Positions 1,362 to 29,423 of a stretch of 64,000 bases of DNA are shown here, piece after piece. A model generated the notes under the pieces. It saw only the letters and a program-made list of their open reading frames with translations. It had not been told where the DNA came from and did no database searches. A program made the translations under genes and the position numbers. How positions within the stretch are numbered: position 1 is the first letter of the stretch; every line of letters starts with the position of its first letter. This DNA comes from Bacteroidaceae bacterium (GTDB lineage: Bacteria; Bacteroidota; Bacteroidia; Bacteroidales; Bacteroidaceae): assembly GCA_016291905.1 (NCBI GenBank), contig JAEEZS010000063.1, positions 1 through 64,000 of the forward strand. The letters are read 5' to 3'.

Positions 1362-1901
1362 TTATACTTTGTCGAGGACATCGCGGGCGACTTGACAAAG
1401 GAGGGAGCTGTCGGAGGAGGCTGCTGCTTCAGCTTGGTCGAGGAGCTCGTCCTTGTCCTGCGAGGAGAGGGGGGCGTCCTGGCCGCGGAGCAGATGTGCC
1501 ATCAGGCGGAAACCGGCATACTGCGTCAGCACGGCCTCCGACGCCATCCACTGGAACGCCTTGTCTTTGGCGTAGGGCAGGCGACGGAAGAGGTTCATGC
1601 AGGTATAGTCGATGATTTCGGTGTCGTGCATGGCCTCAAGCCAGATGTCGGCAATCTCAGGGAGGAACGTGTCGGCAGGCTGGAGGTAGCCGGCAAGGAT
1701 GCGGCATTCGCGGATGTCCTCTTTCCAAAGGGCTTGCGCCAGGGCGTGGTCTTTCTCGTACTTCGAGGCAATCTCCTTCAGCCGAGGCAGTTCCACGCCG
1801 AAGATAAGGTGGTACTTCAGCCCCCGCTCGCGGAGGCTCTGCGCCAGCGGGCCGTTCATATAGAGCCTCAGCTCGGACTTTATCTCATTCAGGGAGGACA
1901 T
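1362..1901 (-). CDS. DNA alkylation repair enzyme-like protein (AlkD family)
   Basis: A 179-residue protein made of alpha-helical HEAT-like repeats, matching the AlkD/DNA-alkylation-repair fold. Family members bind and excise positively charged alkylated bases such as 3-methyladenine or 7-methylguanine without base flipping. Recognisable stretches include ECRILAGYL and DYTCMNLFRRLPYA, the latter in the region contributing the Trp/Asp pocket in AlkD. It is shorter than the usual 220-240 residues, so some terminal helices are missing. The gene stands alone and is flanked by short AT-rich repeats (TTAAGAGTTAAGAA type). Glycosylase activity is inferred from family only. Confidence 0.8.
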   Translation of the reverse strand: MSSLNEIKSELRLYMNGPLAQSLRERGLKYHLIFGVELPRLKEIASKYEKDHALAQALWKEDIRECRILAGYLQPADTFLPEIADIWLEAMHDTEIIDYTCMNLFRRLPYAKDKAFQWMASEAVLTQYAGFRLMAHLLRGQDAPLSSQDKDELLDQAEAAASSDSSLLCQVARDVLDKV

Positions 1902-16107: not shown

Positions 16108-17751
16108 TTATGAGCCGAAATCTTGATTTATGGCTGCACCCACGAACGAGACGAAGAGAGGATGGGGGTGCGTGGGACGGCTGCGGAACTCGGGATGGAA
16201 CTGCACGGCCACATAGTGGGGATGGTCGGGGAGTTCGATGATTTCCACAAGGTTGAGGTCGGGGTTGATGCCCGCTATCCGCAGCCCGTGCTGTTCCAGT
16301 AGGGTGCGGTAGGCATTGTTGAACTCGTAACGGTGGCGGTGGCGTTCCTGAATGGATAATGGATAATTGGCAATGGATGATTGAGAATGGATGCTGCTAT
16401 AGGCTTTCAAGGCGAGGGTTCCAGGCTGCAAGTCGCAGGGGCAGTTGCCGAGGCGCAGCGTGCCGCCCATGTTTCGGATGCCCTTCTGCTCCTCCATGAG
16501 GCAGATGACGGGATGAGGCGTGTCGGAGTTGAATTCGGTTGAGGAGGCATTGGTGAGGCCACAGATGTTGCGGGCAAACTCAATGACGGCTATCTGCATG
16601 CCCAGACAAAGGCCGAGGAACGGCTTGTGCTTTTCGCGGGCATAGCGGCAGGCGGCTATCATCCCTTCGGTGCCGCGTTGGCCGAAGCCCCCAGGGACGA
16701 TGATACCATCGTAGTTGCTTAATACAGAAGCGGCACCTTCAGCCGATTCCAGTTCTTCGGCATCAATATAATCCACACACACCCGTTTTCCAAAATGGTA
16801 GCCGGCATGGTGGAGAGCCTCGGTGACGCTGATGTAGGCATCGGGTAGATGGGTGTATTTCCCCACGAGGGCGATGTGAACCTCGCCCTGCAGGGCGTTC
16901 ACCGTATCGACCATGCGTTGCCATGCGCCGATGTCGAAGCTCCGCGTAGGGAGATGGAGTTTGGCGAGGACAATGTCGTCGGCTCCCTGCTGGTGGTAGA
17001 GGAGGGGAATCTCGTAGACGTTTTTCACATCGATGCTGGCGATGACATTCGTGGCGGGGACGGAGCAGAACATGGCAATCTTCGCCATTACCTCGTGCGG
17101 CGGGAGGACAGGAGTGCGGCAAACGATGATGTCGGGCTGAATGCCGGCACCGCGCAGGTCAATGACGGAGTGCTGCGTAGGCTTCGTCTTCAGCTCGTCC
17201 GAGCCGTAGAGGGCGGGCACCAGTGTGGTGTGGACAAACAAGGTGTCCTCGGCAGCCCGCTCCAGCTTCACCTGTCGCAGCGCCTCAAGGAAGGCCTCCG
17301 ACTCTATGTCGCCCACGGTGCCGCCAATCTCGGTGATGACGATGTCGGCACCCGTTGAAGATGCCGCCTCGTAGATTTTATGTTTGATTTCGTCGGTGAC
17401 ATGCGGCACTATCTGCACGGTGCCTCCGAGGTAGTCGCCGCGCCGCTCTTTATCAATGACGGCCTTCAGTACCTTGCCGAGGGTGATGTTCGACGTGTAG
17501 TTCATCTCCTCACCCGTGAAGCGCTCGTAGTGCCCAAGGTCGAGGTCTGTCTCCGAGCCGTCGGCTGTGACGAACACCTCGCCATGCTGATAAGGACTCA
17601 TGGTGCCTGGGTCGACATTGATATAGGGGTCGAACTTCTGCATGAACACTTTGTAGCCGTGCGCTTTCAATAGCAGGGCAATGCTGGAAGCCGTGATGCC
17701 CTTGCCTAAGCCCGACACGACTCCGCCTGTAACGAATATGAATTTTGCCAT
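16108..17751 (-). CDS. pyrG: CTP synthase
   Basis: 547 residues. Converts UTP to CTP using ATP and glutamine. The N-terminal synthetase domain starts KFIFVTGGVVSGLGKGITASS; the C-terminal class I amidotransferase has the nucleophile in GLCLGMQ and the His-Glu pair in VQFHPEF. Near residues 453-467, just before the conserved ERHRHRYEFNN block, there is a low-complexity insertion (SSIHSQSSIANYPLSIQ) encoded by an ATTATCCATT-type repeat that family members lack. Last gene of the glutamine cluster, 46 bp after guaA, with TTAAGAGTTAAG-type repeats in the gap. Confidence 0.96.
   Translation of the reverse strand: MAKFIFVTGGVVSGLGKGITASSIALLLKAHGYKVFMQKFDPYINVDPGTMSPYQHGEVFVTADGSETDLDLGHYERFTGEEMNYTSNITLGKVLKAVIDKERRGDYLGGTVQIVPHVTDEIKHKIYEAASSTGADIVITEIGGTVGDIESEAFLEALRQVKLERAAEDTLFVHTTLVPALYGSDELKTKPTQHSVIDLRGAGIQPDIIVCRTPVLPPHEVMAKIAMFCSVPATNVIASIDVKNVYEIPLLYHQQGADDIVLAKLHLPTRSFDIGAWQRMVDTVNALQGEVHIALVGKYTHLPDAYISVTEALHHAGYHFGKRVCVDYIDAEELESAEGAASVLSNYDGIIVPGGFGQRGTEGMIAACRYAREKHKPFLGLCLGMQIAVIEFARNICGLTNASSTEFNSDTPHPVICLMEEQKGIRNMGGTLRLGNCPCDLQPGTLALKAYSSIHSQSSIANYPLSIQERHRHRYEFNNAYRTLLEQHGLRIAGINPDLNLVEIIELPDHPHYVAVQFHPEFRSRPTHPHPLFVSFVGAAINQDFGS
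16351..16393 (-). repeat. ATTATCCATT-type short repeat inside pyrG
   Basis: Four imperfect copies of AATGGATAA/ATGGATG in 43 bp, read in frame through pyrG without a stop. Intergenic spacers of related genomes often carry this type of repeat. Confidence 0.65.
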
Positions 17752-17797: not shown

Positions 17798-19357
17798 CTA
17801 TTCCCATTCGATAGTCGATGGGGGTTTGGAGGAAATGTCGTAGCAGACACGGTTCACGCCCTTGACCTTATTGATAATCTCGCTGCTGACGGTAGCCAGG
17901 AATTCGTGGGGCAACGGAGCCCAGTCAGCGGTCATCGCATCGGTGCTGGTGACGGCACGGAGCACGACGGGGTGGTCGTAGGTGCGCTCGTCACCCATCA
18001 CACCTACCGTCCGGATGCCAGCCAGCAGGACGACACCCGCCTGCCACACCTTGTTATAGAGCGTCTGCCCGTCGGCACAGGTCCAATCGCGAAGGCTTCG
18101 GATGAAGATGTCATCGGCCTCCTGTACCATACGCACTCTGTCACGGGTGATGTCGCCCACGATGCGCACCGCCAGTCCAGGCCCTGGGAAGGGATGTCGC
18201 CCGATGAGGTTTTCCGGCAGCCCTAGCTTTCGGCCTACAGCGCGCACCTCGTCCTTGAAAAGCCAGCGCAGCGGTTCGCATAGTTTCAATCCCATCTTCT
18301 CCGGCAGGCCGCCCACGTTGTGGTGGCTCTTGATGACCGTGCCCTTTCCCCCTTCTTTCGAGGGGCGGACAAGGCCGCTCTCAATGCAATCAGGGTAGAT
18401 GGTGCCTTGTGCCAGCCAACGAACGCCTGGCATACGTTTTGCCTCGTCGCTAAACACCTCCACGAAGTCCCTTCCAATGATGTGGCGCTTCTGCTCTGGG
18501 TCGGTGACTCCCGCCAAATCGCCGAGGAAACGCTCGCTGGCGTCAACGCCTTTAACGCTGATGCCTGCTTGTTTATAGGCTTCCATCACCTCGGCAAACT
18601 CGTTCTCGCGCATCATGCCGTGGTCGATGAAGATGCAGGTGAGCCGGTCGCCGATGGCGCGGTTGAGCAGCGCGGCGCATACCGAAGAATCAACGCCGCC
18701 CGAAAGTCCCATTACAACGCGGTCGTTGCCCAGTTGGTGACGCAGTTGGTCAATCGTTGTTGGGATAAAAGCTTCAGGATTCCACTCGCATCGGCTGCCG
18801 CAAATATCGGTCACGAAATTGCGCAGCAGGGTTGTTCCCTCCGTGGTGTGTACCACTTCAGGGTGGAACTGCACACCCCATATGGGCCGGGACAGCGAAG
18901 CGTAGGCAGCAAAGGGGATGTCCTCAGTGGAGGCAATAGCATGGCAGTCGGCAGGCAGGATGGTGATGGTGTCGCCGTGGCTCATCCATACCTGCGACTT
19001 CGCTGCGATGCCGCGCAGCAGAGGGTCGGAGGTGGTGAGGGTGATGCGGGCACGACCATACTCGTGTGCTGCCGTCCGTTCCACCTTGCCGCCATAGGTG
19101 GCTGCCAGCAGCTGGGCACCATAACAGATGCCCAGGCAGGGCACTCGTCCCAGAAAGCGACCGAAGTCGGCACGTGGCGCGTCGGCATCGTGTACCGAGC
19201 AGGGTGATCCGCTCAGGATAACACCTATCACATCCCCGTCGTCAGCCGGGTAGCGGTCGTAGGGCAGTATCTCGCAATATGTGCCCAGTTCTCTTATCCT
19301 ACGTGCAATCAGTTGGGTGGTCTGACTGCCAAAGTCAAGAATGATAATCCGTTGCAT
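17798..19357 (-). CDS. guaA: GMP synthase (glutamine-hydrolysing)
   Basis: 519 residues. Converts XMP to GMP with ATP and glutamine. Class I amidotransferase domain (about 1-190) with the Cys nucleophile in CLGICYGAQ and HPE in [13 protein letters not shown] pyrophosphatase domain with the P-loop [15 protein letters not shown] near residue 220; C-terminal dimerisation domain ending with the conserved KPPSTIEWE. Length and ends match the family. It lies 30 bp downstream of carB. Confidence 0.97.
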
Positions 19358-19387: not shown

Positions 19388-22300
19388 TTAATGGTACTCT
19401 TTCCAGCACTTGATACCGACATCTTCAATCGTCAGATGGCAGAAGGCGTGGATGAACGCTGCCGCGAGGCGGGCGTTGGTGATGAGGGGGATGTTGAAGT
19501 CGATGGCCGTGCGGCGGATGAGGTAGCCGTTTTGCAACTCACGAGGCGTGTGGTTCTTGGGGATGTTGATGACGAGGTCGATACGTCCCTCCCTAAGGTA
19601 GTCGATGACGCTGGGTTTCTGGACGGAATCGGGCCAGTGGACTCGCTCGGCTTCAATGCCATTGGTGGCAAGGAAATCGGCTGTACCACCGGTGGCGTAG
19701 AGACGATAGCCGGAGCGGACGAGCGTGCGCGCTGCCTCCAAAAGCTCTACCTTCGACGGGGCTGTTCCTGACGACATCAAGATGCCCTTGCCCTTGTCAG
19801 GGACACGATAGCCTGCGGCTAGCATACTCTTCAGCAAAGCCTCGTAGTAGTCGGCACCCAGACAGGCCACCTCGCCCGTCGATGCCATATCGACACCCAG
19901 TACGGGGTCGGCGCCCGTCAGACGGGCAAACGAGAACTGCGCCGCCTTGACTCCCACGCAGTCGATGTCGGCAAACGTCTTGCCGTAGGGCTCTACCTCG
20001 TGCCCCAGCATAATCTCTGTAGCCATGCCGATGAAATTGAATCCCGTCACCTTCGACACAAAGGGGAAGCTGCGGCTGGCACGCAGGTTGCACTCGATGA
20101 CCTTCAGCCGGTTGTCCTTGGCAAGGAACTGGATGTTGAAGGGACCTGAGATGTGAAGTGCCTCGGCCAGCTTTGCAGCCGTGCGACGCACACGGCGGAT
20201 GGTTTCGTAGTAAAGTTTCTGGGCGGGGAATACCACGGTGGCATCGCCGCTATGAACGCCAGCAAATTCCACATGCTCGCTGATGGCGTAGCACTTGATG
20301 ACACCCTCTTGCGCCACGGCGTCAATCTCCACCTCTTTGGCTCGTTCCACAAATTCGGTTACCACCACGGGGTGCTCGTGGCTGACGGCTGCCGCCGCAC
20401 TCAGGGCATCGTCCAGTTCATCGTTTCCCGTCACCACGCGCATGGCAGCACCGCTGAGCACGTACGAGGGACGGATGAGCAAGGGGTAGCCCACTTTCTC
20501 AGCAAAACTGACGATGTCTTGTATGTTCGTCAGCTCGGCCCAGCGGGGCTGGTCGATGTCCAGCTTGTCGCAAAGGGCGGAGAATTTCTGGCGGTCCTCG
20601 GCGCAATCGATGGATGTGGCGGGGGTGCCGAGGAGGGTGACGCCCCGCTCTGCCAGCAGCATGGCGAGGTTGTTGGGCGTCTGTCCGCCTACGGACACGA
20701 TGATGCCTCGTGGCGCCTCGGCGTCACAGATGTCGAGCACACGCTCCAGCGTGAGTTCGTCGAAATAGAGGCGGTCACAGGCATCGTAGTCGGTACTGAC
20801 GGTCTCGGGATTGAAGTTTATCATCAGGGCGCGGTAGCCCATCTCTTGCACCTTGCGGATAGCGGCAACGCAACACCAGTCGAACTCCACACTCGACCCG
20901 ATGCGGTAGGCACCGCTGCCCAGTACCACCACCGAACGGCCGTCGCGCTCTGGCACAAGGTCGTTCTCATCGCCGCCATAGGTGATGTAGAGGTAGTTCG
21001 TCTGTGCCGGATATTCGCCTGCCAGCGTGTCAATCTGTTTGATGACGGGGACGATGCCCAACTGCTTGCGGAGGGCTCGCACGGCGTCGGCTTTTCCGTG
21101 GGGCGACAGCCCGCTGCCGGCAAGCACGAGCTTCCCTATCTGGTAGTCGCTGAAGCCGCGGCTTTTGGCTTCGCGGAGCAGGGCGTCACTTACGTCGGCA
21201 AGTGACGAGCATACGGCCAGCCGGACTTTGGTGCGATGGATGTTCTCCAGGCGGCAGAGGAACCATTTGTCGATTTTCGTGAGCTCGTGCAGACGGTCGA
21301 TGGTGTAGCCGCGGTCGAACGCCAGTTCGATGGCGGGCAGGCGGCGGTCGGTGGGGTTCTGCAGCTCGGTGTCCACGTCGGGGATGTGGAGCTCGTTGCC
21401 CACAAAGCCGTGTAGCCCTTGTCCCACCATGCGCAGTCCCTTCTGGATGGCTTCCTCGAAGGTGCGGCCGATGGCCATGACCTCGCCGACGGACTTCATG
21501 GACGAGCCGATGCGGCGCGAAACGTGGGAGAACTTGCTCAAGTCCCAGCGGGGCAGCTTACAGACGACGTAGTCGAGGGCGGGCTCGAAGCAGGCGGTGG
21601 TGACACGGGTGACGGCATTTGTCAGTTCGTCGAGTCCGTAGCCTAGGGCGAGCCGTGCCGCCACGGCGGCAAGAGGATATCCCGTGGCCTTCGAGGCGAG
21701 GGCCGACGAACGACTGAGGCGGGCGTTGACCTCGATAACGCGATAGTCGTCGGAGGTGGGCGAAAGGGCGTACTGGACGTTGCACTCGCCGATGATGCCC
21801 ACGCGGCGCACGATGCGGATGGCCGTTTCGCGCAGACGGTGGTACTCGTGGTCGCTGAGTGTCTGCGATGGTGCCACGACGACACTCTCGCCGGTGTGAA
21901 TGCCGAGGGGGTCGAGGTTTTCCATGTTGCAGACGGTGATGCAGTTGTCGTAACGGTCGCGCACTACCTCATACTCGATTTCCTTCCAGCCTTTCAGCGA
22001 CTCCTCCACCAACAGTTGGGGCGAATAGGCAAGGGCCGACGAGGCGAGGCGGGTGAGCTCATCGTCATTGGCACAGAATCCTGAGCCGAGACCACCCAGC
22101 GTATAGGCCGCACGGACGATGACCGGGTAGCCCGTTACCCGCGCAGCTTGCAAGGCTTCCTCGACGCTGCCGACGGCAATGCTCTTCGGCGTCTTCACGT
22201 CTATCTCGTGCATCAGGTCGGCAAAGAGCTGGCGGTCCTCGGTCTCCATGATGGCCTCGACGGGGGTGCCAAGCACCTTGACACCATATTTGTCGAGGAT

Positions 22301-22612
22301 GCCGCGGCGATAGAGCTCCGTGCCGCAGTTGAGTGCCGTCTGCCCGCCGAAGGCCAGCATGATGCCGTCGGGGCGTTCTTTCTGGATGACCTTCTCGACA
22401 TACTCGGGTGTGATGGGCAGGGAATAGACGGCATCGGCAATACCCTCGGACGTCTGCACGGTGGCTACGTTGGGGTTGATGAGGATGGTGTACCGGTGTT
22501 CGTCGCGCAGCGCCTTCAATGCCTGCGTGCCGGAATAGTCAAACTCGCCAGATTGGCCAATCTTCAGGGCTCCCGACCCTAAGAGTAGTATTCGTTGGAT
22601 GCTATCGGACAT
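19388..22612 (-). CDS. carB: Carbamoyl-phosphate synthase large subunit
   Basis: 1074 residues, the usual length. It makes carbamoyl phosphate from bicarbonate, ammonia from CarA, and two ATP. Two homologous ATP-grasp halves are visible (each opening with LLLGSGALKIGQSGEFDYSG or VVLGSGAYRIGSSVEFDWC) and a C-terminal MGS-like regulatory domain follows (KGILMSSGTAPSK onward). The start is the ATG giving MSDSIQRILLLGSG; it overlaps the end of carA by 11 bp, so the two subunits are coupled. Confidence 0.97.
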   Translation of the reverse strand: MSDSIQRILLLGSGALKIGQSGEFDYSGTQALKALRDEHRYTILINPNVATVQTSEGIADAVYSLPITPEYVEKVIQKERPDGIMLAFGGQTALNCGTELYRRGILDKYGVKVLGTPVEAIMETEDRQLFADLMHEIDVKTPKSIAVGSVEEALQAARVTGYPVIVRAAYTLGGLGSGFCANDDELTRLASSALAYSPQLLVEESLKGWKEIEYEVVRDRYDNCITVCNMENLDPLGIHTGESVVVAPSQTLSDHEYHRLRETAIRIVRRVGIIGECNVQYALSPTSDDYRVIEVNARLSRSSALASKATGYPLAAVAARLALGYGLDELTNAVTRVTTACFEPALDYVVCKLPRWDLSKFSHVSRRIGSSMKSVGEVMAIGRTFEEAIQKGLRMVGQGLHGFVGNELHIPDVDTELQNPTDRRLPAIELAFDRGYTIDRLHELTKIDKWFLCRLENIHRTKVRLAVCSSLADVSDALLREAKSRGFSDYQIGKLVLAGSGLSPHGKADAVRALRKQLGIVPVIKQIDTLAGEYPAQTNYLYITYGGDENDLVPERDGRSVVVLGSGAYRIGSSVEFDWCCVAAIRKVQEMGYRALMINFNPETVSTDYDACDRLYFDELTLERVLDICDAEAPRGIIVSVGGQTPNNLAMLLAERGVTLLGTPATSIDCAEDRQKFSALCDKLDIDQPRWAELTNIQDIVSFAEKVGYPLLIRPSYVLSGAAMRVVTGNDELDDALSAAAAVSHEHPVVVTEFVERAKEVEIDAVAQEGVIKCYAISEHVEFAGVHSGDATVVFPAQKLYYETIRRVRRTAAKLAEALHISGPFNIQFLAKDNRLKVIECNLRASRSFPFVSKVTGFNFIGMATEIMLGHEVEPYGKTFADIDCVGVKAAQFSFARLTGADPVLGVDMASTGEVACLGADYYEALLKSMLAAGYRVPDKGKGILMSSGTAPSKVELLEAARTLVRSGYRLYATGGTADFLATNGIEAERVHWPDSVQKPSVIDYLREGRIDLVINIPKNHTPRELQNGYLIRRTAIDFNIPLITNARLAAAFIHAFCHLTIEDVGIKCWKEYH

Positions 22613-23687
22613 AATTCCTAATATTCGAGATGAATAAGTCGAAGAGGCTGTCGGTATCGACGGGGCCGCTGCTGGCCTCGGGGTGGAACTGGGTGGAGAA
22701 GAAGGGCTTTGTCTTGTGGCGGAGGCCTTCGACGGTGCCGTCGTTAAGGTTCTCGAAGAGACATTCCCAGTTATCGGGCAGCGTGTTACCGTCGACGGCA
22801 AAGCCGTGGTTCTGCGAGGTGACGAAGCAGCGGTGGGTGCCCGGGATGCGGACGGTCTGGTTGTGGCCGCGATGGCCGTACTTCATCTTATACGTCCGTG
22901 CGCCGGCAGCGAGTGCCAGCAGCTGGTGGCCGAGGCAGATGCCCATGATGGGGCGGTCGCCGGCCAGGGCGGTGCGCAGGTGGCTGATGGTGGGGACGAG
23001 GCGCGACGGGTCGCCCGGGCCATTGGAGATGAAGATGCCGTCGTAGTCACTGTCGGCGGTGAAGTCGTAGTCCCACGGCACGCGGCGTATGGTGACGTCG
23101 CGGCGGAGCAGACAGCGCAGGATGTTGTTCTTGATGCCGCAGTCAATCATCAGCACGCGGTAGCGTCCGTTGCCGTAGCTTTGGATGCGGTCGGTCGAAA
23201 CCTGTGCCACGAGGTTTTCGGCGTTCGGGTCGCGGAAGGGGATGACGTCATCGCCGTCGAAGATGATGCGTCCCGACATGGCGCCGTAGGTGCGTAGCCG
23301 CTTGGCCAGCGAGCGGGTGTCGATGCCGTAGATGCCGGGGATGTGCTGCTCCACGAGCCAGTTGCCGAGGCTGCGGTGCGAATCCCAGTGGCTATAGTCC
23401 GCCGAATAGTCGCCGATGATGAGGGCGGTGCATTGGATGCGGTCCGATTCGAAGTGCTCCGGCAGGCCGTAGGCATCACGCTCGTCGTCGGGGACGCCGT
23501 AGTTCCCTATCATGGGATAGGTGGGGACAAGCAGCTGGCCACGGTACGAGGGGTCGGTGAGGCTTTCGGGATAGCCCGTCATGGCGGTGGTGAACACCAT
23601 TTCGCCGGAGACGGACTGCTCGTATCCAAACGAGTAGCCCTGATACTCACTCCCGTCAGCCAGTTGCAGGATGGCTTTTCTCTCCAT
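22602..23687 (-). CDS. carA: Carbamoyl-phosphate synthase small subunit
   Basis: 361 residues. Glutaminase subunit that feeds ammonia to CarB. The N-terminal CarA-specific domain includes FTTAMTGYPESLTDPSYRGQ; the class I amidotransferase domain has Cys in GICLGHQLLAL and His/Glu in TQFHPEAS. It starts 8 bp after the end of the glutamine synthetase gene and overlaps carB, so it is in the middle of the operon. Confidence 0.97.
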   Translation of the reverse strand: MERKAILQLADGSEYQGYSFGYEQSVSGEMVFTTAMTGYPESLTDPSYRGQLLVPTYPMIGNYGVPDDERDAYGLPEHFESDRIQCTALIIGDYSADYSHWDSHRSLGNWLVEQHIPGIYGIDTRSLAKRLRTYGAMSGRIIFDGDDVIPFRDPNAENLVAQVSTDRIQSYGNGRYRVLMIDCGIKNNILRCLLRRDVTIRRVPWDYDFTADSDYDGIFISNGPGDPSRLVPTISHLRTALAGDRPIMGICLGHQLLALAAGARTYKMKYGHRGHNQTVRIPGTHRCFVTSQNHGFAVDGNTLPDNWECLFENLNDGTVEGLRHKTKPFFSTQFHPEASSGPVDTDSLFDLFISNIRNYVR

Positions 23688-23695
23688 ATTTATAC

Positions 23696-25873
23696 TTAAT
23701 TAATAAATAGCAGTTCGCGATATTTGGGCAGGGGCCAGAGGTCGTTGTCGACAATCTGCTCCAGCCGGTCGATGGGCCGACGGATGGCGGCAAGGCTTTC
23801 GGCAATAGCATGATAGGCACAGGCACGCTGGTAGAGGTCGTCGATGCGGTTGGCAGCCTTGCGGGCCTCCACCATGGCATTGACACGGCTGCGAAGTTCG
23901 CGGACGAGGGTGCTGATCTCCCTTGTCAGGCTCAGGGCCGGGTTGCCTTCCATCTCTTCGCCGACTTCCTGCATCAGGCGGACGTTCTGCAAGAGGCGCG
24001 TCTGATAAGTAAGGGCGACGGGGATGATATGGTTGATGGCCATGCGGCCGATGACGCGTGCCTCAATCTGCACCTTCTTGACGTAAGTCTCCCACTTCAC
24101 CTCGTTGCGGGAAGTGAGCTCACGCTCAGTATAGATGCCGAGACGGGTGAAGAGGCGGACTGACGAGGGGGTGGTGAAAGCGCGGAACATCTCGGGGACG
24201 TTGGTCTCGGTGTCAAGCCCGCGACGGGCAGCTTCGGCAGCCCATTCGGGGGTGTAGCCGTTGCCCTCGAAGCAGACGGTGTCCAAGATGTCGCTGATGA
24301 TGGGCTTGAGAGTGTCCATGATGGCGACGGAGAGGGGACGGCCCTCGCCAATCGCCTGTTGCACATCGGCATGGAACGCCTGCAGCTGCTCGGCAACAGC
24401 CGCCGAGAGGGTGGTGAGCGCACCGGCACAGTTAGCACTACTGCCTACAGCGCGGAACTCAAAGCGGTTGCCCGTGAAGGCAAAGGGTGAGGTGCGGTTG
24501 CGGTCGGTGTTATCGACAATAATTTCAGGTATCTCCACGAGGCCGACGGAAGCGCCCCGCTTGCCGGCAATGTCGATGGGCGTGTCGGAGGGGAGAGTGA
24601 TGAGTTTGTGCAGCACGTCGGTCATGGTGCGGCCGAGGAAGGCCGAAACAATGGCAGGCGGTGCCTCGTTGGCACCCAGACGGTGGGCGTTGGTAGCTGA
24701 GGCGACAGAGGCTTTTAATACAGCGTTGTGAGTCTGCACGGCCTTCAGCACGTTCACGAAAAAGGTGATGAACTGCAGGTTACCCTGCGCGTCGCGTCCA
24801 GGGGCAAGCAATGGAACACCCGTGTCGGTGCCCAGCGACCAGTTGCAATGCTTGCCCGAGCCGTTGATGCCGTCGAAGGGCTTCTCGTGAAGCAGTAACA
24901 CGAAGCCGTGACGACGGGCTGTGGTCTGCATGACGTTCATCACCAGCTGGTTCTGGTCGTTCGACAGGTTGGCTTCGCCGTAGATGGGCGCCATCTCAAA
25001 CTGCCCGGGCGCCACCTCGTTGTGGCGCGTCTTGAGGGGAATGCCCAGCTTGTAGCCGCAGACCTCCACGTCGCGCATGAACGCCGCCACACGGGCGGGG
25101 ATGGCGCCAAAGTAGTGGTCGTCGAGCTGCTGGTTCTTCGACGAGACGTGTCCCATCAGCGTTCGGCCCGTCAGCATCAGGTCGGGGCGGGCGGCATAGA
25201 GGTCCTCATCGACAAGGAAGTACTCCTGCTCCCAGCCGAGGTAGGAGATGACGTGACGGACGGCGGGGTCGAACAACTGGCAGATGGGCAGCGCGGCGTC
25301 GCTGACGGCGCGAAGTGAGCGCTTCAGCGGCGTCTTGTAGTCGAGTGCCTCGCCCGTGTAGGAGATGAACACGGTGGGGATGCAGAGCGTGTCGTCCTGG
25401 ATGAACACGGGCGACGTGGGGTCCCACGCCGTGTAGCCGCGTGCCTCGAAGGTGGCACGGATGCCCCCGCTGGGGAACGACGAGGCGTCGGGCTCCTGCT
25501 GCACCAGCGCGCGGCCCGTGAACTCCTCTATCATGCCGCCGCGCCCATCGTACTCCAGAAACGAGTCGTGCTTCTCGGCCGTGCCCTCGGTGAGGGGCTG
25601 GAACCAGTGGGTGATGTGGGTGACGCCGTGCTCCAGCGCCCACGTCTTCATGCCCTTCGCCACACCGTCGGCCGTGACGGCGTCCAACGGTCTGTCGCCC
25701 GCCATGCACTCCAGCAGCGCCTTGTACGTAGCGGCATCCAGATAGCGCCGCATCTTCTCCTTGCCGAACACCAGCTCGCCGAAGTACTCCGACGGCTTTG
25801 CCGATGGCACGTTCACCTCTACGGCCTTCTTCTTGAAAGCCTCCTGTACAACGTCAAATCGCAGTTTACTCAT
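23696..25873 (-). CDS. glnN: Glutamine synthetase type III
   Basis: 725 residues. ATP-dependent synthesis of glutamine from glutamate and ammonia. GSIII is a dodecameric form common in Bacteroidota, about 720-730 residues long with an N-terminal domain not found in GSI. Characteristic blocks include DGRGGMIEEFTGRALVQQEPDASSFPSGGIR, the active-site HNEVAPGQFEMAP and NGSGKHCNWSLGTDTG. A Shine-Dalgarno-like AAGGAG lies just before the ATG. It heads glnN-carA-carB-guaA-pyrG, and its 460-bp leader has unusual features (see 26201-26314 and the two stem-loops). Confidence 0.96.
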   Translation of the reverse strand: MSKLRFDVVQEAFKKKAVEVNVPSAKPSEYFGELVFGKEKMRRYLDAATYKALLECMAGDRPLDAVTADGVAKGMKTWALEHGVTHITHWFQPLTEGTAEKHDSFLEYDGRGGMIEEFTGRALVQQEPDASSFPSGGIRATFEARGYTAWDPTSPVFIQDDTLCIPTVFISYTGEALDYKTPLKRSLRAVSDAALPICQLFDPAVRHVISYLGWEQEYFLVDEDLYAARPDLMLTGRTLMGHVSSKNQQLDDHYFGAIPARVAAFMRDVEVCGYKLGIPLKTRHNEVAPGQFEMAPIYGEANLSNDQNQLVMNVMQTTARRHGFVLLLHEKPFDGINGSGKHCNWSLGTDTGVPLLAPGRDAQGNLQFITFFVNVLKAVQTHNAVLKASVASATNAHRLGANEAPPAIVSAFLGRTMTDVLHKLITLPSDTPIDIAGKRGASVGLVEIPEIIVDNTDRNRTSPFAFTGNRFEFRAVGSSANCAGALTTLSAAVAEQLQAFHADVQQAIGEGRPLSVAIMDTLKPIISDILDTVCFEGNGYTPEWAAEAARRGLDTETNVPEMFRAFTTPSSVRLFTRLGIYTERELTSRNEVKWETYVKKVQIEARVIGRMAINHIIPVALTYQTRLLQNVRLMQEVGEEMEGNPALSLTREISTLVRELRSRVNAMVEARKAANRIDDLYQRACAYHAIAESLAAIRRPIDRLEQIVDNDLWPLPKYRELLFIN

Positions 25874-25895
25874 ACTCCTTATACCTTATTATATA

Positions 25896-26084
25896 TTATA
25901 CACTTCGTCCATGGTCAATTGTCCTTTTGAGGCCCTTGCCAAGAAGAAAGGCTGGCTCACGGGGAGCCAGCCTTTCAGACAGCGCAGGAGAGGGGGACAG
26001 CAGGCGGCTGTCCGTCGGCAGGGACAGCTCCTTCATGCTGGCCATAAGGGCACACATTGCTCTGTAAACCTCTTCCTTCATCAT
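25896..26084 (-). CDS. Possible small ORF in the glnN leader (62 codons)
   Basis: Opens with ATGATGAAGGAAGAG and encodes MMKEEVYRAMCALMASMKEL and on. The last third crosses stem-loop 2, and the stop is 22 bp before glnN. I do not recognise the product. The N-terminal half is helix-like and the rest looks less protein-like. It may be a leader ORF or simply an open frame through a regulatory RNA. Confidence 0.25.
   Translation of the reverse strand: MMKEEVYRAMCALMASMKELSLPTDSRLLSPSPALSERLAPREPAFLLGKGLKRTIDHGRSV
25947..25975 (-). terminator. Stem-loop 2 in the glnN leader, terminator-like
   Basis: Perfect 12-bp stem AAAGGCTGGCTC/GAGCCAGCCTTT with a 5-nt loop, followed on the minus strand by CTTCTTGG. 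It is 74 bp upstream of glnN. Its arms are nearly identical to those of stem-loop 1. Confidence 0.65.
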
Positions 26085-26131
26085 TTCGTTACTAATCTTT
26101 TAACCTTAAAAACAATTAACCTTTATAACAC

Positions 26132-26162
26132 GTAAGGCTGGTTCCTTAAAAACCAGCCTTAC
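26132..26162 (-). promoter_or_regulatory. Stem-loop 1 in the glnN leader
   Basis: Perfect 12-bp stem GTAAGGCTGGTT/AACCAGCCTTAC with a 7-nt loop, 38 nt after the Gln-rich ORF stop. No direct U-run follows. Its 3' arm can pair with the 5' arm of stem-loop 2, which would prevent stem-loop 2 from forming. Confidence 0.6.
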
Positions 26163-26200
26163 TTTATAAACTACTTCATCTTTCTCTCTTTTCCTCTACC

Positions 26201-26314
26201 TCATTTATCAATAGGACTGGCGAACTTGATAAACGTCTGTTGCTGCTGGAACTGATTCTGGTTCCAGTTCAGCTTGTCATTCATCTTGTTGAAAAGGCAA
26301 TTAAACGTAAACAT
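26201..26314 (-). CDS. Gln/Asn-rich 37-residue leader peptide (putative)
   Basis: A small ORF 22 nt downstream of the predicted transcription start, with an AAGGA motif 8 nt before the ATG. The product begins MFTFNCLFNKMND, contains NWNQNQFQQQQ and ends PIDK; 12 of 37 residues are Gln or Asn. It lies at the head of the transcript leading to glutamine synthetase and three glutamine-using enzymes, and I see no other convincing promoter before glnN. By analogy with trp and his leader peptides it may sense Gln-tRNA charging, but the glutamine codons lie about 80 nt ahead of stem-loop 1, further than in classical attenuators. An unrelated small gene remains possible. Confidence 0.45.
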   Translation of the reverse strand: MFTFNCLFNKMNDKLNWNQNQFQQQQTFIKFASPIDK

Positions 26315-26342
26315 CTTCGCTGTCCTTCTTTTTTTGACGCTG

Positions 26343-26373
26343 CAAAGGTACGCCGTTTTTTCCAATTTCCAAA
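26343..26373 (-). promoter_or_regulatory. Promoter for the leader ORF and probably the glnN operon
   Basis: Minus-strand TTTG (26370-26373), 19-nt spacer, TACCTTTG (26343-26350): a near-ideal Bacteroidota promoter. Predicted start near 26336. Confidence 0.7.
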
Positions 26374-26416
26374 CGATTTTCCGGATTTTTTCATCTCTCT
26401 GTTTCTGTTTTTTTAC

Positions 26417-26537
26417 TACATCACTACACGGCTCGCCCATAATCCTCTCGCTCACAGCCCTGTTGCCTCCATTGCCCTAAAAATTACTACACGATTACTA
26501 CACAATTACTACACGAAAACGTCGTTTTTTCGTGTAG
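26417..26537. repeat. ACTACACG repeats with a palindrome
   Basis: ACTACAC occurs four times, three of them within ATTACTACAC units between 26485 and 26516, and the stretch ends in the inverted repeat ACACGAAAA/TTTTTTCGTGT around CGTCG (about 26513-26537). This part of the 27-gene gap has no supportable gene. Confidence 0.55.
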
Positions 26538-26545
26538 AATGTGTA

Positions 26546-26764
26546 GATGAAACGTCCATCCTCTCAGATGCTCCTTCTATTTTCGCGAAAGGCCCTTCTA
26601 ATTTTATAGAATCAGCTTCTATTTGTGCCGATGCTTTATTCCTTTGGGCTGCGGAATTATTCCCTTACGTTACTGATTTATTCCACTACGCTACGGATTT
26701 ATTCCCTTGGGCTGTGGAATTATCGTTAAACTCTACTGATTTGTTTCCTAATGTTACTTTGGTA
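26546..26764 (+). repeat. 21-bp-period degenerate array, ten or so units
   Basis: The best example of this repeat class in the window. Units such as TTATTCCACTACGCTACGG start at exact 21-bp steps from about 26651 to 26735 and less clearly back to 26546. Each unit tends to carry ATTCC and GGAA/T as a loose dyad. The plus frame is open throughout and gives seven-residue repeats such as TDLFHYA and TDLFPWA; upstream units (KGPSNFI) match the AEGPS type at 967-1050. I treat it as non-coding. Confidence 0.7.
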
Positions 26765-26850
26765 TAAAATGAAAGTGGTGCGTTTTGTACACGACAAATG
26801 TCCAAAGGAAGAACGACTGACGCAACGCTATTTTCTTCCCGTTCGGAGAC

Positions 26851-27573
26851 TTAGTGGAATCTGAACATCTTTTCCCTCTGTAACCTTGTGTACATAAGAT
26901 CGTTGACTCGCGTAATATCAAAATAGATTTCGGAACGATTGTAGAACTGGCTGGTTTCTCCTAATGAGAAAATGTCGTAATCGCCGGCAAACATTTGAGT
27001 CTCTAATTTCCAAAGGTTCAGATAGAAGCGCATGAAGTTGTATTCATCGCTTATTTTGGTGACGTAGAAAGGATGCTCCTTGGAGCCGTCGCCTGTCCTG
27101 TCGATGGTGTTTAGCAAGGCCGCAGTACATCTCACATAGCATCGGGCATCGTCTGCCTTTACCTGTGGCCAGCGCACAGAATCCTGTGCCATAGAAAACA
27201 GTACCTGGCCCGTCATAGTAAGGGCATCCAAATTCAAGGGGTTAATTTCCAGGATTTTTTTCGCTTTTTTCAGGCATTGTTCCAACTTTCCTTCCCTGGC
27301 CAGTTTTTCCATCTTTGCCACTTGTGCCTCCTCCTTGTCTTTCGTCAGAAGCGACTGGCCATAAAAGGCGAGTATTTTTTCGGGATAGGTCAAGGTCGTG
27401 TCCTGCTGTTCAACGGACATCCGTGCCACCAGTTCCTTGACGTGTTTCGGATTCGTTTTCACCTCTTTTTTTATCTCTTCCCAGTTTACGGGAAGGATTT
27501 CCTTTTCTTCCTGTGCGTTCATCCACAAAGGCAGGAACGAAAGCAGGATTAAAGTAAGCTTCAGTTTTTTCAT
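26851..27573 (-). CDS. Secreted DUF4919-like protein
   Basis: 240 residues with a signal peptide (MKKLKLTLILLSFLPLWMNA). The mature protein is alpha-helical, with a TPR-like section around residues 90-130 (LEQCLKKAKKILEINPLNLDALTMTGQVLFSMAQ) and a conserved-looking LTYPEKILAFYGQSLL. It resembles the Bacteroidota family DUF4919, of unknown function. It is monocistronic, with its own promoter and no close neighbour downstream. Function is unknown. Confidence 0.65.
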   Translation of the reverse strand: MKKLKLTLILLSFLPLWMNAQEEKEILPVNWEEIKKEVKTNPKHVKELVARMSVEQQDTTLTYPEKILAFYGQSLLTKDKEEAQVAKMEKLAREGKLEQCLKKAKKILEINPLNLDALTMTGQVLFSMAQDSVRWPQVKADDARCYVRCTAALLNTIDRTGDGSKEHPFYVTKISDEYNFMRFYLNLWKLETQMFAGDYDIFSLGETSQFYNRSEIYFDITRVNDLMYTRLQREKMFRFH

Positions 27574-27601
27574 GACATTCTCCTTTTTTTATTTCCGAGG
27601 A

Positions 27602-27633
27602 CAAAAATAGTATTCAAGGAGAGAAATTACAAG
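27602..27633 (-). promoter_or_regulatory. Promoter for the DUF4919-like gene
   Basis: Minus-strand CTTG (27630-27633), 20-nt spacer, TATTTTTG (27602-27609); start codon 29 bp downstream. Confidence 0.6.
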
Positions 27634-27665
27634 AAAGATAACTATTTTTAAGGTTTTTATTGCAA

Positions 27666-29423
27666 TCAAAGGGCGGCGGCCTGTGCCTGCGTCATCATGC
27701 GGAGGAAGTTTTCGCCCCAGACCTTGCGGAGGTCATCGTCGGTGAGGCCCTCAGCCTGCAGGCAGCGGGTGAGGTTCATCACCTCGGAGGCGTCGGCACA
27801 GCCGATGATGCCCCCATCGCCATCGAAGTCGGTACCGATGCCGACGTGGTCGATGCCTGCGACGTCAATCATGTGGAGCAGATGGCGCACGGCATCATCG
27901 ACGGTAGCACGTCCCTCGGCTTCGGGGCGGAGGAAGCCGCTGTAGAGGCACACCTGCGCCACGCCGCCGCAGTCGCGCAAAGCGCGTAGCTGGTCGTCGG
28001 TGAGGTTGCGGGGGTGGTTGCAAAGGGCACGGCTGCTGCTGTGGCTGCACACGATGGGGGTGCGGCTTAAGGCGAGGGCATCGTAGAAGCTCTGCTCGGC
28101 AGCATGCGAGAGGTCCACCATCATGCCCACGCGATTCATCTCGCGCACCACCTCACGGCCGAAGTCGCTGAGGCCTTTGTGGGTAAAGGTGGTCTCGTTG
28201 TCACGAGGACGGGCAGAGGCACAGATGGCGTTGTTGCCGTTGTGGCAAAGAGTCATATAGACTACGCCACGCTGGCGGAAGTGTTCCACAAGGCTGAGGT
28301 CGTCGCCAATGGCATAGCCGTTTTCGATGCCCAGCATGATGGACTTGAGCCCTCGATGCTTATTGTAATAGAGCTCGTCGGGCGTGCGGGCAATGGCAAC
28401 CTGTTGACCTGTTGACTTGTTGACCTGTTGACCTGTTGACTTGTTGACCTGTTGACCCAATCTTACGATGCCGTCGAGCAGGGCGTCGGCCTTGCGGGTG
28501 GCAGCGGCATAGTCGTAGTGCCCGGGGAGGTCCTGGGGAATGTAGGCGACCATGATGGTGGCATCGAGGTGGCCGTCGCGCATGTTGGGGAGGTTGACGA
28601 GGATGCGCGGGTCGCGGGTGTGGAAGTCGATGTGCTGGTGGAAGAACATCGGGGTGTCGCAATGGGTGTCGAGGGTGAGGTGGCGGCGGTGGAAGCGCCG
28701 TGCCTCGGCAAACGACTTCGCCTCGCCCACTAGCCAGCGGAAGAGGGGGAGCATGGAGGTGTCGTCGCCCAGAATCATGCACTCAGGGTGCCATTGCACG
28801 CCCAGCATCGGCTTGCCCTCGGTGCTCTCGACAGCCTCGATGATGCCGTCGGGCGAGAGGGCGCTGACGCGGAAGCCGGGTGCCGCCTCGCGCACAGCCT
28901 GATGGTGGAAGCTGTTGACGGGGAAGTCGTCATTCTTGCTGCCTTCAAGGATTTTTGCCAGCAGCGTGTCGGGGAGTATGCTGACGGTGTGCGACGTGGT
29001 GTGGCGGGGGGCAGGGCTTTGGTCGTGACCGAGCGTGGCGCCGCCCTGCACATAGATGTCCTGCCACAGCCGTCCGCCCAGGGCGGCCGTCATCACCTGT
29101 ATGCCGCGGCAAATGCCCAGCACGGGAATCTGCTTATGGACAGCCATGCGGACGAGCGGCAGCTCCTGTGCGTCGCGCGGCACGTTCGGCTCGCCCACCT
29201 CGGGCAGCGGCTCCTCGCCCAGCAGACGGGGGTCGATGTCGCCCCCTCCGCTCAGGATGAGCCCATCGACATGCTCCAGCAGGCTCTCCATCAGCGCCTC
29301 GTCGGCATAGGGAGGGACGATGACGGGGCTGCCGCCGGCGTGGACGACAGAAGCAAAATACCCCTCCAGCATGGTGCACATGCCGGAGGAGTAGTTACCT
29401 GTAATGGCAATCAGAGGTGCCAT
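27666..29423 (-). CDS. Fused C26 glutamine amidotransferase-like and M19 dipeptidase protein
   Basis: 585 residues with two enzyme domains. Residues 1-240 form a class I amidotransferase-like peptidase C26 (PuuD/gamma-glutamyl hydrolase type): GLILSGGGDIDP, nucleophile Cys in LGICRGIQV, and His-Glu in GVQWHPE. Residues 250-580 form an M19 membrane dipeptidase: zinc motif LDTHCDTP, the bridging-Glu region LGIENG, a zinc-ligand His in VDLSHA and GIGTDFDGDGG. Both domains cleave gamma-glutamyl or dipeptide bonds, so the fusion may process gamma-glutamyl dipeptides in sequence. No signal peptide is seen. An 8-bp tandem repeat inserts the peptide NKSTGQQV near residues 323-341. It lies 6 bp upstream of the FKBP gene. 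Confidence 0.88.
   Translation of the reverse strand: MAPLIAITGNYSSGMCTMLEGYFASVVHAGGSPVIVPPYADEALMESLLEHVDGLILSGGGDIDPRLLGEEPLPEVGEPNVPRDAQELPLVRMAVHKQIPVLGICRGIQVMTAALGGRLWQDIYVQGGATLGHDQSPAPRHTTSHTVSILPDTLLAKILEGSKNDDFPVNSFHHQAVREAAPGFRVSALSPDGIIEAVESTEGKPMLGVQWHPECMILGDDTSMLPLFRWLVGEAKSFAEARRFHRRHLTLDTHCDTPMFFHQHIDFHTRDPRILVNLPNMRDGHLDATIMVAYIPQDLPGHYDYAAATRKADALLDGIVRLGQQVNKSTGQQVNKSTGQQVAIARTPDELYYNKHRGLKSIMLGIENGYAIGDDLSLVEHFRQRGVVYMTLCHNGNNAICASARPRDNETTFTHKGLSDFGREVVREMNRVGMMVDLSHAAEQSFYDALALSRTPIVCSHSSSRALCNHPRNLTDDQLRALRDCGGVAQVCLYSGFLRPEAEGRATVDDAVRHLLHMIDVAGIDHVGIGTDFDGDGGIIGCADASEVMNLTRCLQAEGLTDDDLRKVWGENFLRMMTQAQAAAL
28401..28456 (-). repeat. Seven tandem copies of an 8-bp unit inside the C26-M19 gene
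   Basis: Unit GTCAACAG/GTCAACAA on the coding strand. Because 3 x 8 = 24, all three coding-strand frames read the same stop-free eight-residue peptide; the opposite strand contains TGA. The same repeat occurs at 60603-60690. Confidence 0.9.

Follow-up and report, generated by a model that had tools for sequence, protein, structure and literature searches.

A putative leader-peptide attenuator reading glutamine and asparagine codons upstream of glnN-carAB-guaA-pyrG and of other nitrogen genes in some Bacteroidales

The DNA under study, here called the window, is a stretch of 64,000 nucleotides from a gut bacterium of the Bacteroidaceae. It carries five closely spaced genes, glnN-carA-carB-guaA-pyrG, all on the minus strand. 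Pfam identifies a glutamine synthetase of type III (GSIII), CarA, CarB, GuaA and PyrG, i.e., a glutamine synthetase combined with glutamine-dependent amidotransferases, as stated in an initial annotation of this DNA. The relevant features are listed in the direction of transcription.

26343-26373, minus strand: promoter TTTG-N19-TACCTTTG, a pattern match just upstream of the leader ORF
26201-26314, minus strand: leader ORF of 37 codons, MFTFNCLFNKMNDKLNWNQNQFQQQQTFIKFASPIDK, rich in Asn and Gln (N/Q); ATG at 26314, stop codon at 26201-26203
26215-26220, minus strand: CCAGTC, putative antiterminator arm (arm 0), inside the leader ORF shortly before the stop codon, complementary to GGCTGG
26132-26162, minus strand: hairpin 1, terminator homologue with covariation; arms 26132-26143 and 26151-26162, 12 nt, 100% complementary, -21.4 kcal/mol
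25946-25976, minus strand: hairpin 2 with the same arms; 25946-25958 and 25964-25976, 13 nt, 100% complementary, -24.7 kcal/mol, TTCTT behind the stem
23696-25873, minus strand: glnN, type III glutamine synthetase (Pfam GSIII_N and others)
22602-23687, minus strand: carA, carbamoyl-phosphate synthase small chain, glutamine amidotransferase (Pfam)
19388-22615, minus strand: carB, carbamoyl-phosphate synthase large chain (Pfam; open frame as scanned, start approximate)
17798-19357, minus strand: guaA, GMP synthase, glutamine amidotransferase (Pfam)
16108-17751, minus strand: pyrG, CTP synthase, glutamine amidotransferase (Pfam)

The promoter conforms to the pattern TTTG-N(18-21)-TANNTTTG, which we take to be the Bacteroidetes-type promoter consensus. 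The window contains six matches to this pattern where 0.19 are expected, and the consensus promoter annotated at 26343-26373 is one of them. A promoter-like sequence is located at the corresponding place in four loci of the same genus, L125, L126, L127 and L135. As to a separate promoter directly before glnN, raised as a counterargument in the initial annotation, no second one of this type stands directly upstream of the gene, and none lies between the hairpins and glnN; the other five matches in the window lie elsewhere. Upstream of the promoter is a DUF4919 gene. The interval between this gene and the promoter (26400-26770) harbors degenerate short repeats of the TTACTACAC type at 11-nt spacing, plus a 27-nt pair.

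The N/Q-rich ORF of 37 codons is present as annotated and comprises six Asn and six Gln codons; its densest stretch has nine N/Q in 14 codons. The peptide core NCLFNKMNDKLN is identical in the window, in L127 (GSIII), in L125 and L126 (both asnB) and in L135 (glmS), and the codons used for it differ synonymously. When the full leaders of the window and L127 are compared, 14 codons are identical, 7 are synonymous and 14 non-synonymous, the last being located outside of the core in a region which is still N/Q-rich. Judged by these codon comparisons, the leader is conserved as a peptide among the five loci. Enrichment in Gln/Asn codons and synonymous change, as required of an attenuator leader ORF, are both evident, and translation of the ORF is predicted. 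In the leaders of GSIII, asnB, glmS and pyrG a conserved core, NCL[FS]N[KQ]MNDK, might add nascent-chain arrest to codon sensing. Which amino acid is signaled? Over all measured leaders we counted 430 AAT, 145 AAC, 343 CAG and 62 CAA codons, i.e., 575 for Asn versus 405 for Gln. Because Asn codons are as frequent as Gln codons in the window and more frequent overall, the signal probably is both Gln and Asn; glutamine as the natural signal is retained from the initial proposal, glutamine alone is not.

Two perfect stem-loops with interchangeable arms follow, again as annotated, and share AAGGCTGG...CCAGCCTT. The region 25850-26340 folds with a z of -5.6, and none out of 100 shuffles folds equally well. 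Candidates for a trp-type 1:2 pause hairpin can be seen inside the leader in this fold of the window. In the whole genome AAGGCTGG-N(3-16)-CCAGCCTT occurs at three places, the two window hairpins and L001; the latter lies in apparent coding sequence and was dismissed as a chance occurrence. Each of the five compared loci that share the NCLFNKMNDKLN core (window, L125, L126, L127, L135) has a second hairpin with the same arms, positioned 159-208 nt further on. It is not a property of every module locus in the genus, as the P-II loci L141 and L142 (genomes G001 and G017, same genus) possess one hairpin only. Between the two hairpins of L125, L126 and L127 lie 150 nt which are 83-98% identical between asnB and GSIII leaders and contain inverted repeats as well as what may be an ORF of 51 codons, with no counterpart of that form in the window. 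A second small ORF between the hairpins is not claimed as coding: it is similar between L125 and L127 and, separately, in part between the window and G016, not across both groups.

In the initial annotation the antiterminator was drawn as a pairing of arms 2 and 3, i.e., of the hairpin-1 3' arm with the hairpin-2 5' arm. The idea of an alternative pairing has stood up, whereas the shared element is another one: CCAGYC at the end of the leader pairs with the hairpin-1 5' arm, GGCTGG in the window. That the 2:3 duplex nevertheless acts as the principal antiterminator, with CCAGTC uninvolved, appears quite unlikely to us. Indeed, the two arms are complementary, with -15.6 kcal/mol in the window and -11.9 to -14.4 kcal/mol in the four other genus loci; yet they are about 155 nt apart, the hairpin-1 3' arm is occupied while hairpin 1 is intact, instances with a single hairpin such as L141 and L142 do exist, and what the loci have in common is CCAGYC or a variant that keeps the pairing. 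Where two hairpins are present, a 2:3 pairing is possible as a second step. There, CCAGUC can pair with the 5' arm of either hairpin. As a hypothesis, a relay can be envisaged in which CCAGUC would free the hairpin-1 3' arm, which in turn would block hairpin 2; this would reconcile the first drawing with the general mechanism.

Upstream of GSIII genes, a density of at least 8 N/Q per 14 codons is reached on the sense strand in 11 of 100 rows and on the antisense strand, where the maximum is 7, in 0 of 100; duplicates were kept among the 100 rows and some contigs provide little upstream sequence. The upstream ORFs at GSIII of L005 (G008, a genus mate) are those of L030 (a rumen MAG, Bacteroidaceae), and the two share one leader. 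All 11 rows have a GGCUGG hairpin preceded by a pairing arm, ten recognized by a regular expression and one, L059 with its imperfect stem, by model and eye. As these rows had been singled out solely by their N/Q content, the switch which they have in common was found independently of it. The common order is leader ORF, CCAGYC near the stop codon, an A-rich spacer and the hairpin RAGGCUGG...YCAGCCU. CCAGYC is not the arm of every GSIII case, since L053 has UCAGCC at the stop codon. The GSIII rows L027, L028, L029, L040, L043, L067 and L081 have the switch with at most 5-6 N/Q per 14 codons; L009 has 7 N/Q in 14 and a different hairpin. Upstream of GSIII in G015 (L297) we noticed a weaker N/Q ORF, MVDKKDSRCSFTSGKSGRKNNDKGQQRQQQAPAYIITC, with 7 N/Q in 14 codons and hairpins of other sequence, possibly an independent attenuator design.

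The leader ORF, its N/Q codons and the stem are thus kept in some relatives; the distribution is patchy and extends to other nitrogen genes. The leader is not confined to GSIII: in other Bacteroidales the module also precedes glnB, asnB, gltB, glmS, pyrG and amtB. It is found before asnB in L026, L034, L082 and, weaker, in L051, and before glnB in L056 and in L089 with two copies. In L089 (430-732) two complete N/Q leader-attenuator modules are arranged in tandem before a single glnB, as if for a sharper response. The pyrG gene of G571 (L181) has its own leader of the N/Q attenuator type. G247 and G389 carry the module before three genes each, one without name, amtB and GSIII. G389 has its three attenuators within about 10 kb (L122/L123 represent G389 and G247), and the GSIII copy of G247 is on another contig. 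The gene behind the first leader of L122/L123 has a signal-peptide-like start and looks porin-like by eye; it has no match in Pfam and NCBIfam.

A covariance model, R1, was built from 24 training sequences and searched in 201 genomes of the family. All 28 matches of at least 43 bits precede a gene of the nitrogen set: P-II 9, GSIII 7, asnB 5, glmS 4, gltB 2 and pyrG 1. The training set itself accounts for five of the 28, which are copies of its sequences, and further ones are closely related to it; it contained no glmS, pyrG or gltB example. The downstream genes were named from the ORF start, and one representative of each was run against Pfam. At least 7 N/Q in 14 codons are present in 23 of the 28; the five below this value, with 3 to 6, all belong to GSIII. 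Could the stems be ordinary terminators next to a small ORF which is meaningless or has an independent function? Stems of the GGCTGG/CCAGCC kind could be a common terminator type, and other weak model matches elsewhere are plain hairpins or lie inside coding sequence. However, the strong matches come with N/Q leaders and nitrogen genes, and of 21 weak matches with no recognized nitrogen gene within 450 nt downstream none exceeds 5 N/Q in 14 codons; we can hardly give credence to this explanation. At 41.3 bits, L171 (module at 1501-1598, minus strand) has 7 N/Q in 14 codons and the same switch before a circularly permuted ATP-grasp gene (PF14403), a hint at a possible role of this family in nitrogen metabolism. 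A glmS copy, L183 (1500-1596), has kept the hairpin and has no detectable leader, possibly a system in decay; it was not included in the curated set described below.

We curated 72 instances which represent 42 distinct arm combinations. A leader with at least 6 N/Q in 12 codons is present in 65 of the 72 and falls below this value in seven (six GSIII, one asnB), bearing in mind that curation itself leaned on the N/Q run and on gene context. CCAG or a variant of it pairs with the terminator 5' arm in 42 of 42 combinations, although the model or pattern by which the majority of instances had been detected itself contains CCAGYC. The next two positions pair in 37 of 42 each, i.e., pairs are lost at each in 5. 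Variants which keep the pairing are CCGGUC/GGCCGG (L067), CCGGUC/GACCGG (L045, L074), UCAGUC/GGCUGA (L048) and ACCAGUCC/GGACUGGU (L191). In 41 of 42 combinations the segment that pairs best with the terminator arm includes part or all of CCAG; the duplex beats 95% of same-region shuffles in 28 of 42 only. Covariation in the antiterminator is weak: 94.8% of the cells are paired and three pairs have double changes (reached in 1 of 500 shuffles), yet the covariation score is equaled in 203 and the number of pair types in 150 of 500 shuffles. The score is poor because the sequence hardly varies, and from the alignment the antiterminator is to be regarded mainly as a conserved, almost invariant sequence. 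By complementarity, antiterminator and terminator share an arm and are mutually exclusive. For a nascent RNA which extends no further than the 5' arm, the antiterminator is the predicted fold in 42 of 42 combinations, compared to a mean of 13.5 when the first nine bases are shuffled. As soon as the 3' arm is included the terminator fold wins at equilibrium in 41 of 42; for this reason the antiterminator would have to act kinetically.

In the terminator stem covariation is strong. In a MAFFT alignment of 24 sequences 95.1% of the cells are paired and 7 of 12 pairs are doubly changed, a result attained in 0 of 500 shuffles; in a larger model-fitted alignment the values are 95.6% and 8 of 12, with the score again at 0 of 500. 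After the core of the 3' arm a T-rich tract with at least 6 T in 10 nt follows in 65 of the 72 curated instances, and a run of at least 5 in 46 of 72. Covarying stem and T-rich tract thus point to an intrinsic terminator between the leader ORF and the first gene, weak as hairpin 1 of the window is in this respect: its tail, TTACGTGTTATA, has 5 T in 10 nt and a longest T run of 2. A good U-tract follows hairpin 1 in L125-L127, the window and G016 lack one there, and the U-tract of hairpin 2 is at best broken in all five NCLFNKMNDKLN-core loci. Possibly, hairpin 2 is the effective terminator in the window species. The deficient U-tracts would agree with translational or Rho-linked control, in which translation of the leader, instead of intrinsic termination, would determine whether ribosomes can reach glnN or whether a Rho site is exposed. 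We consider this unlikely, as the T-rich tract is present behind the stem in the great majority of instances and the start of glnN is some 70 nt past hairpin 2.

Intrinsic termination governed by leader translation is consistent with the geometry. The 65 leaders that have 6 or more N/Q in 12 codons all place the end of their last N/Q codon 13-55 nt upstream of CCAG. The stop codon lies at -9 to +38 nt from CCAG, in 40 of the 65 at +13 to +20. In the window the last Gln codon ends 16 nt before the CCAGTC arm, and the earlier reservation about the distance of the Gln codons from stem 1 falls away. A ribosome covers about 10 nt past its A site. With this footprint and this geometry, the arm should be accessible while a ribosome is stalled on any of the N/Q codons and be covered once the ribosome has reached the stop codon. 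This applies to all but 4 of the 65 leaders; in those four, three GltB leaders and the asnB leader L082, the stop codon is 35-38 nt past the arm, beyond simple masking.

The following course of events can be envisaged. Transcription would start just upstream of the leader ORF, with a ribosome following the polymerase. Given ample charged tRNA-Gln and tRNA-Asn, the ribosome would reach the stop codon and cover CCAGTC; GGCUGG would then pair with its own 3' arm, hairpin 1 would form and transcription would stop at one of the two hairpins. When charged tRNA is scarce, the ribosome would stall in the N/Q run and leave free CCAGTC, at least 13 nt downstream. CCAGTC would pair with the newly made GGCUGG, pre-empt hairpin 1 and let the polymerase enter glnN-carAB-guaA-pyrG. 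The decision would be kinetic, depending on whether CCAGYC is free as GGCUGG emerges. In loci with two hairpins the freed hairpin-1 3' arm may pair with the hairpin-2 5' arm and so pass the decision on, a step we propose with less assurance. As for tRNA charging, GlnRS and AsnRS exceed the cut-off in the genome of the window (G000, 93% complete), in which GatB gave no match; the GatB search gives a match in 12 of 14 control genomes, the two without one being E. coli and Bacteroides ihuae. Hence, both tRNAs should be charged directly, following free Gln and Asn.

Another explanation is a metabolite riboswitch or a protein-binding RNA with an incidental ORF. It would account for the conservation of GGCUGG/CCAGCC, which exceeds the need of one pairing, and for the conserved residues other than N/Q in the NCLFNKMNDKLN core. 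Against it, translation is favored by synonymous change in a constant core, by N/Q runs of up to 14 in 14 codons and by where the arm sits with respect to the stop codon, and the spacer is A-rich and variable. Furthermore, an Rfam scan of 23000-28000 yielded no family at the gathering score (the best match, BTnc060, with 23.6 bits versus a gathering score of 228.9, was discarded as chance), and none was found at E 0.5 in five relatives. We regard such an RNA as very unlikely.

Taken together, a ribosome-mediated transcription attenuator which senses the supply (charging) of Gln and Asn is the best explanation of these sequences, and we hold it to be highly probable; the likelihoods attached to it and to the alternatives are not mutually exclusive. 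Leader, arms, geometry, gene set and terminator covariation emerge from sequence comparison; stalling, termination, the signal and the direction of the response we infer. The initial proposal of a glutamine-sensing leader-peptide attenuator is therewith upheld as the best reading, enlarged by asparagine, as leader, N/Q codons and stem recur before nitrogen genes.

How widespread is the module? At P-II genes of the family, 7 of 25 loci have 12-13 N/Q and the hairpin, and 18 of 25 have at most 5 N/Q and no hairpin. Of 151 genomes 78 had matched, the best 30 loci were viewed, 27 entered the main comparison and a start was found in 25; because only the best 30 P-II loci were considered, 7 of 25 is no family-wide frequency. 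Across the order, where 48 of 198 genomes matched, none of 27 P-II loci with a start (29 examined) has a convincing leader, the maximum being 7 N/Q in 14 codons (L245). A tight DNA pattern matched 11 of 393 genomes of the order. Three of these (G000, G247, G389) carry the module; the other eight, with at most 4 N/Q in 14 codons, were rejected. R1 searched in 295 genomes of the order gave matches at E 0.01 or better in 55, under strict filters which lose weak matches. Among the best 30 loci are the window and one G247 copy, and the remaining 28 have at most 5 N/Q in 14 codons. In G000 itself P-II and the other two GSIII genes are devoid of the module, R1 found no further copy with a leader, and weak matches at C78, C26 and C6 lack an N/Q leader. 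For these reasons the window species appears to use the module at a single place, ahead of its glutamine operon. Overall, the distribution is patchy, the module being kept by some lineages of Bacteroidales.

The leaders of trp, his, thr, ilv and leu are ribosome-mediated attenuators of amino-acid operons. The module resembles them in a leader rich in codons for the product amino acid, in alternative terminator and antiterminator structures and in position-dependent masking by the ribosome. It differs in that the codons are those for Gln and Asn, that the 5' arm of the antiterminator is at the leader's own stop codon, and that one nearly identical stem serves several nitrogen operons. Glutamine is the ligand of the glnA and Downstream-peptide RNAs. 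Neither the glnA/Downstream-peptide models nor that of Bacteroid-trp RNA (RF01692) matched in 23000-28000 (E up to 5) or in five relatives (E up to 0.5). According to the relevant portion of PMC2864571, the cyanobacterial glnA and Downstream-peptide RNAs occur near genes for P-II, glutamine synthetase, glutamate synthase and ammonium transporters, and glnA RNAs also in tandem. Gene set and tandem arrangement are much the same; however, as portrayed there, these RNAs are structured riboswitch candidates, not coding leaders.

In the same phylum, leader-peptide attenuation of amino-acid genes has been suspected in Flavobacterium psychrophilum (PMC9723704), leader-like sORFs were noted in 5' UTRs of B. 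thetaiotaomicron (PMC7366714), and Bacteroid-trp RNA is RF01692 (PMC2864571). Among the cases given in the pertinent sections of these three sources there is no Gln/Asn leader, and we found no Gln/Asn leader peptide in open-licence papers. Attenuation itself is known; new in comparison with these papers are the Gln/Asn specificity, the placement of the antiterminator arm within the last codons of the leader and the use across nitrogen genes. In Prevotella ruminicola 23, which is not known to carry the module, the same genes are involved: amtB, glnK, asnB, GSIII-2 and gltBD show strong joint changes when the nitrogen supply is altered (PMC5552732, in its results as excerpted). The excerpts conflict about the direction, once with induction by limiting ammonium and in several places with higher levels on non-limiting ammonium; the latter would not fit a simple response to shortage. 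The terms leader, attenuat and NtrC are absent from the main text of PMC5552732, and the excerpts name no mechanism.

The module would extend attenuation to glutamine and asparagine, and with it one attenuator is distributed among several operons in the manner of a regulon, a task for which a transcription factor or a riboswitch is ordinarily assumed. For the nitrogen response of rumen Bacteroidales it provides a testable mechanism with a defined gene set. These comparisons suggest that the bacteria gauge their nitrogen supply by the ease with which a ribosome reads N/Q codons. In its widest form, to which we give an even chance, some Bacteroidales would exert broad nitrogen control without a dedicated transcription factor: Gln/Asn leaders and the shared CCAGYC/GGCUGG switch would, by ribosome stalling, set the uptake of ammonium (glnB/amtB), its assimilation (GSIII/gltB/asnB) and the syntheses that consume glutamine (glmS/pyrG/carAB/guaA), to which the conserved leader core might add arrest of the nascent chain.
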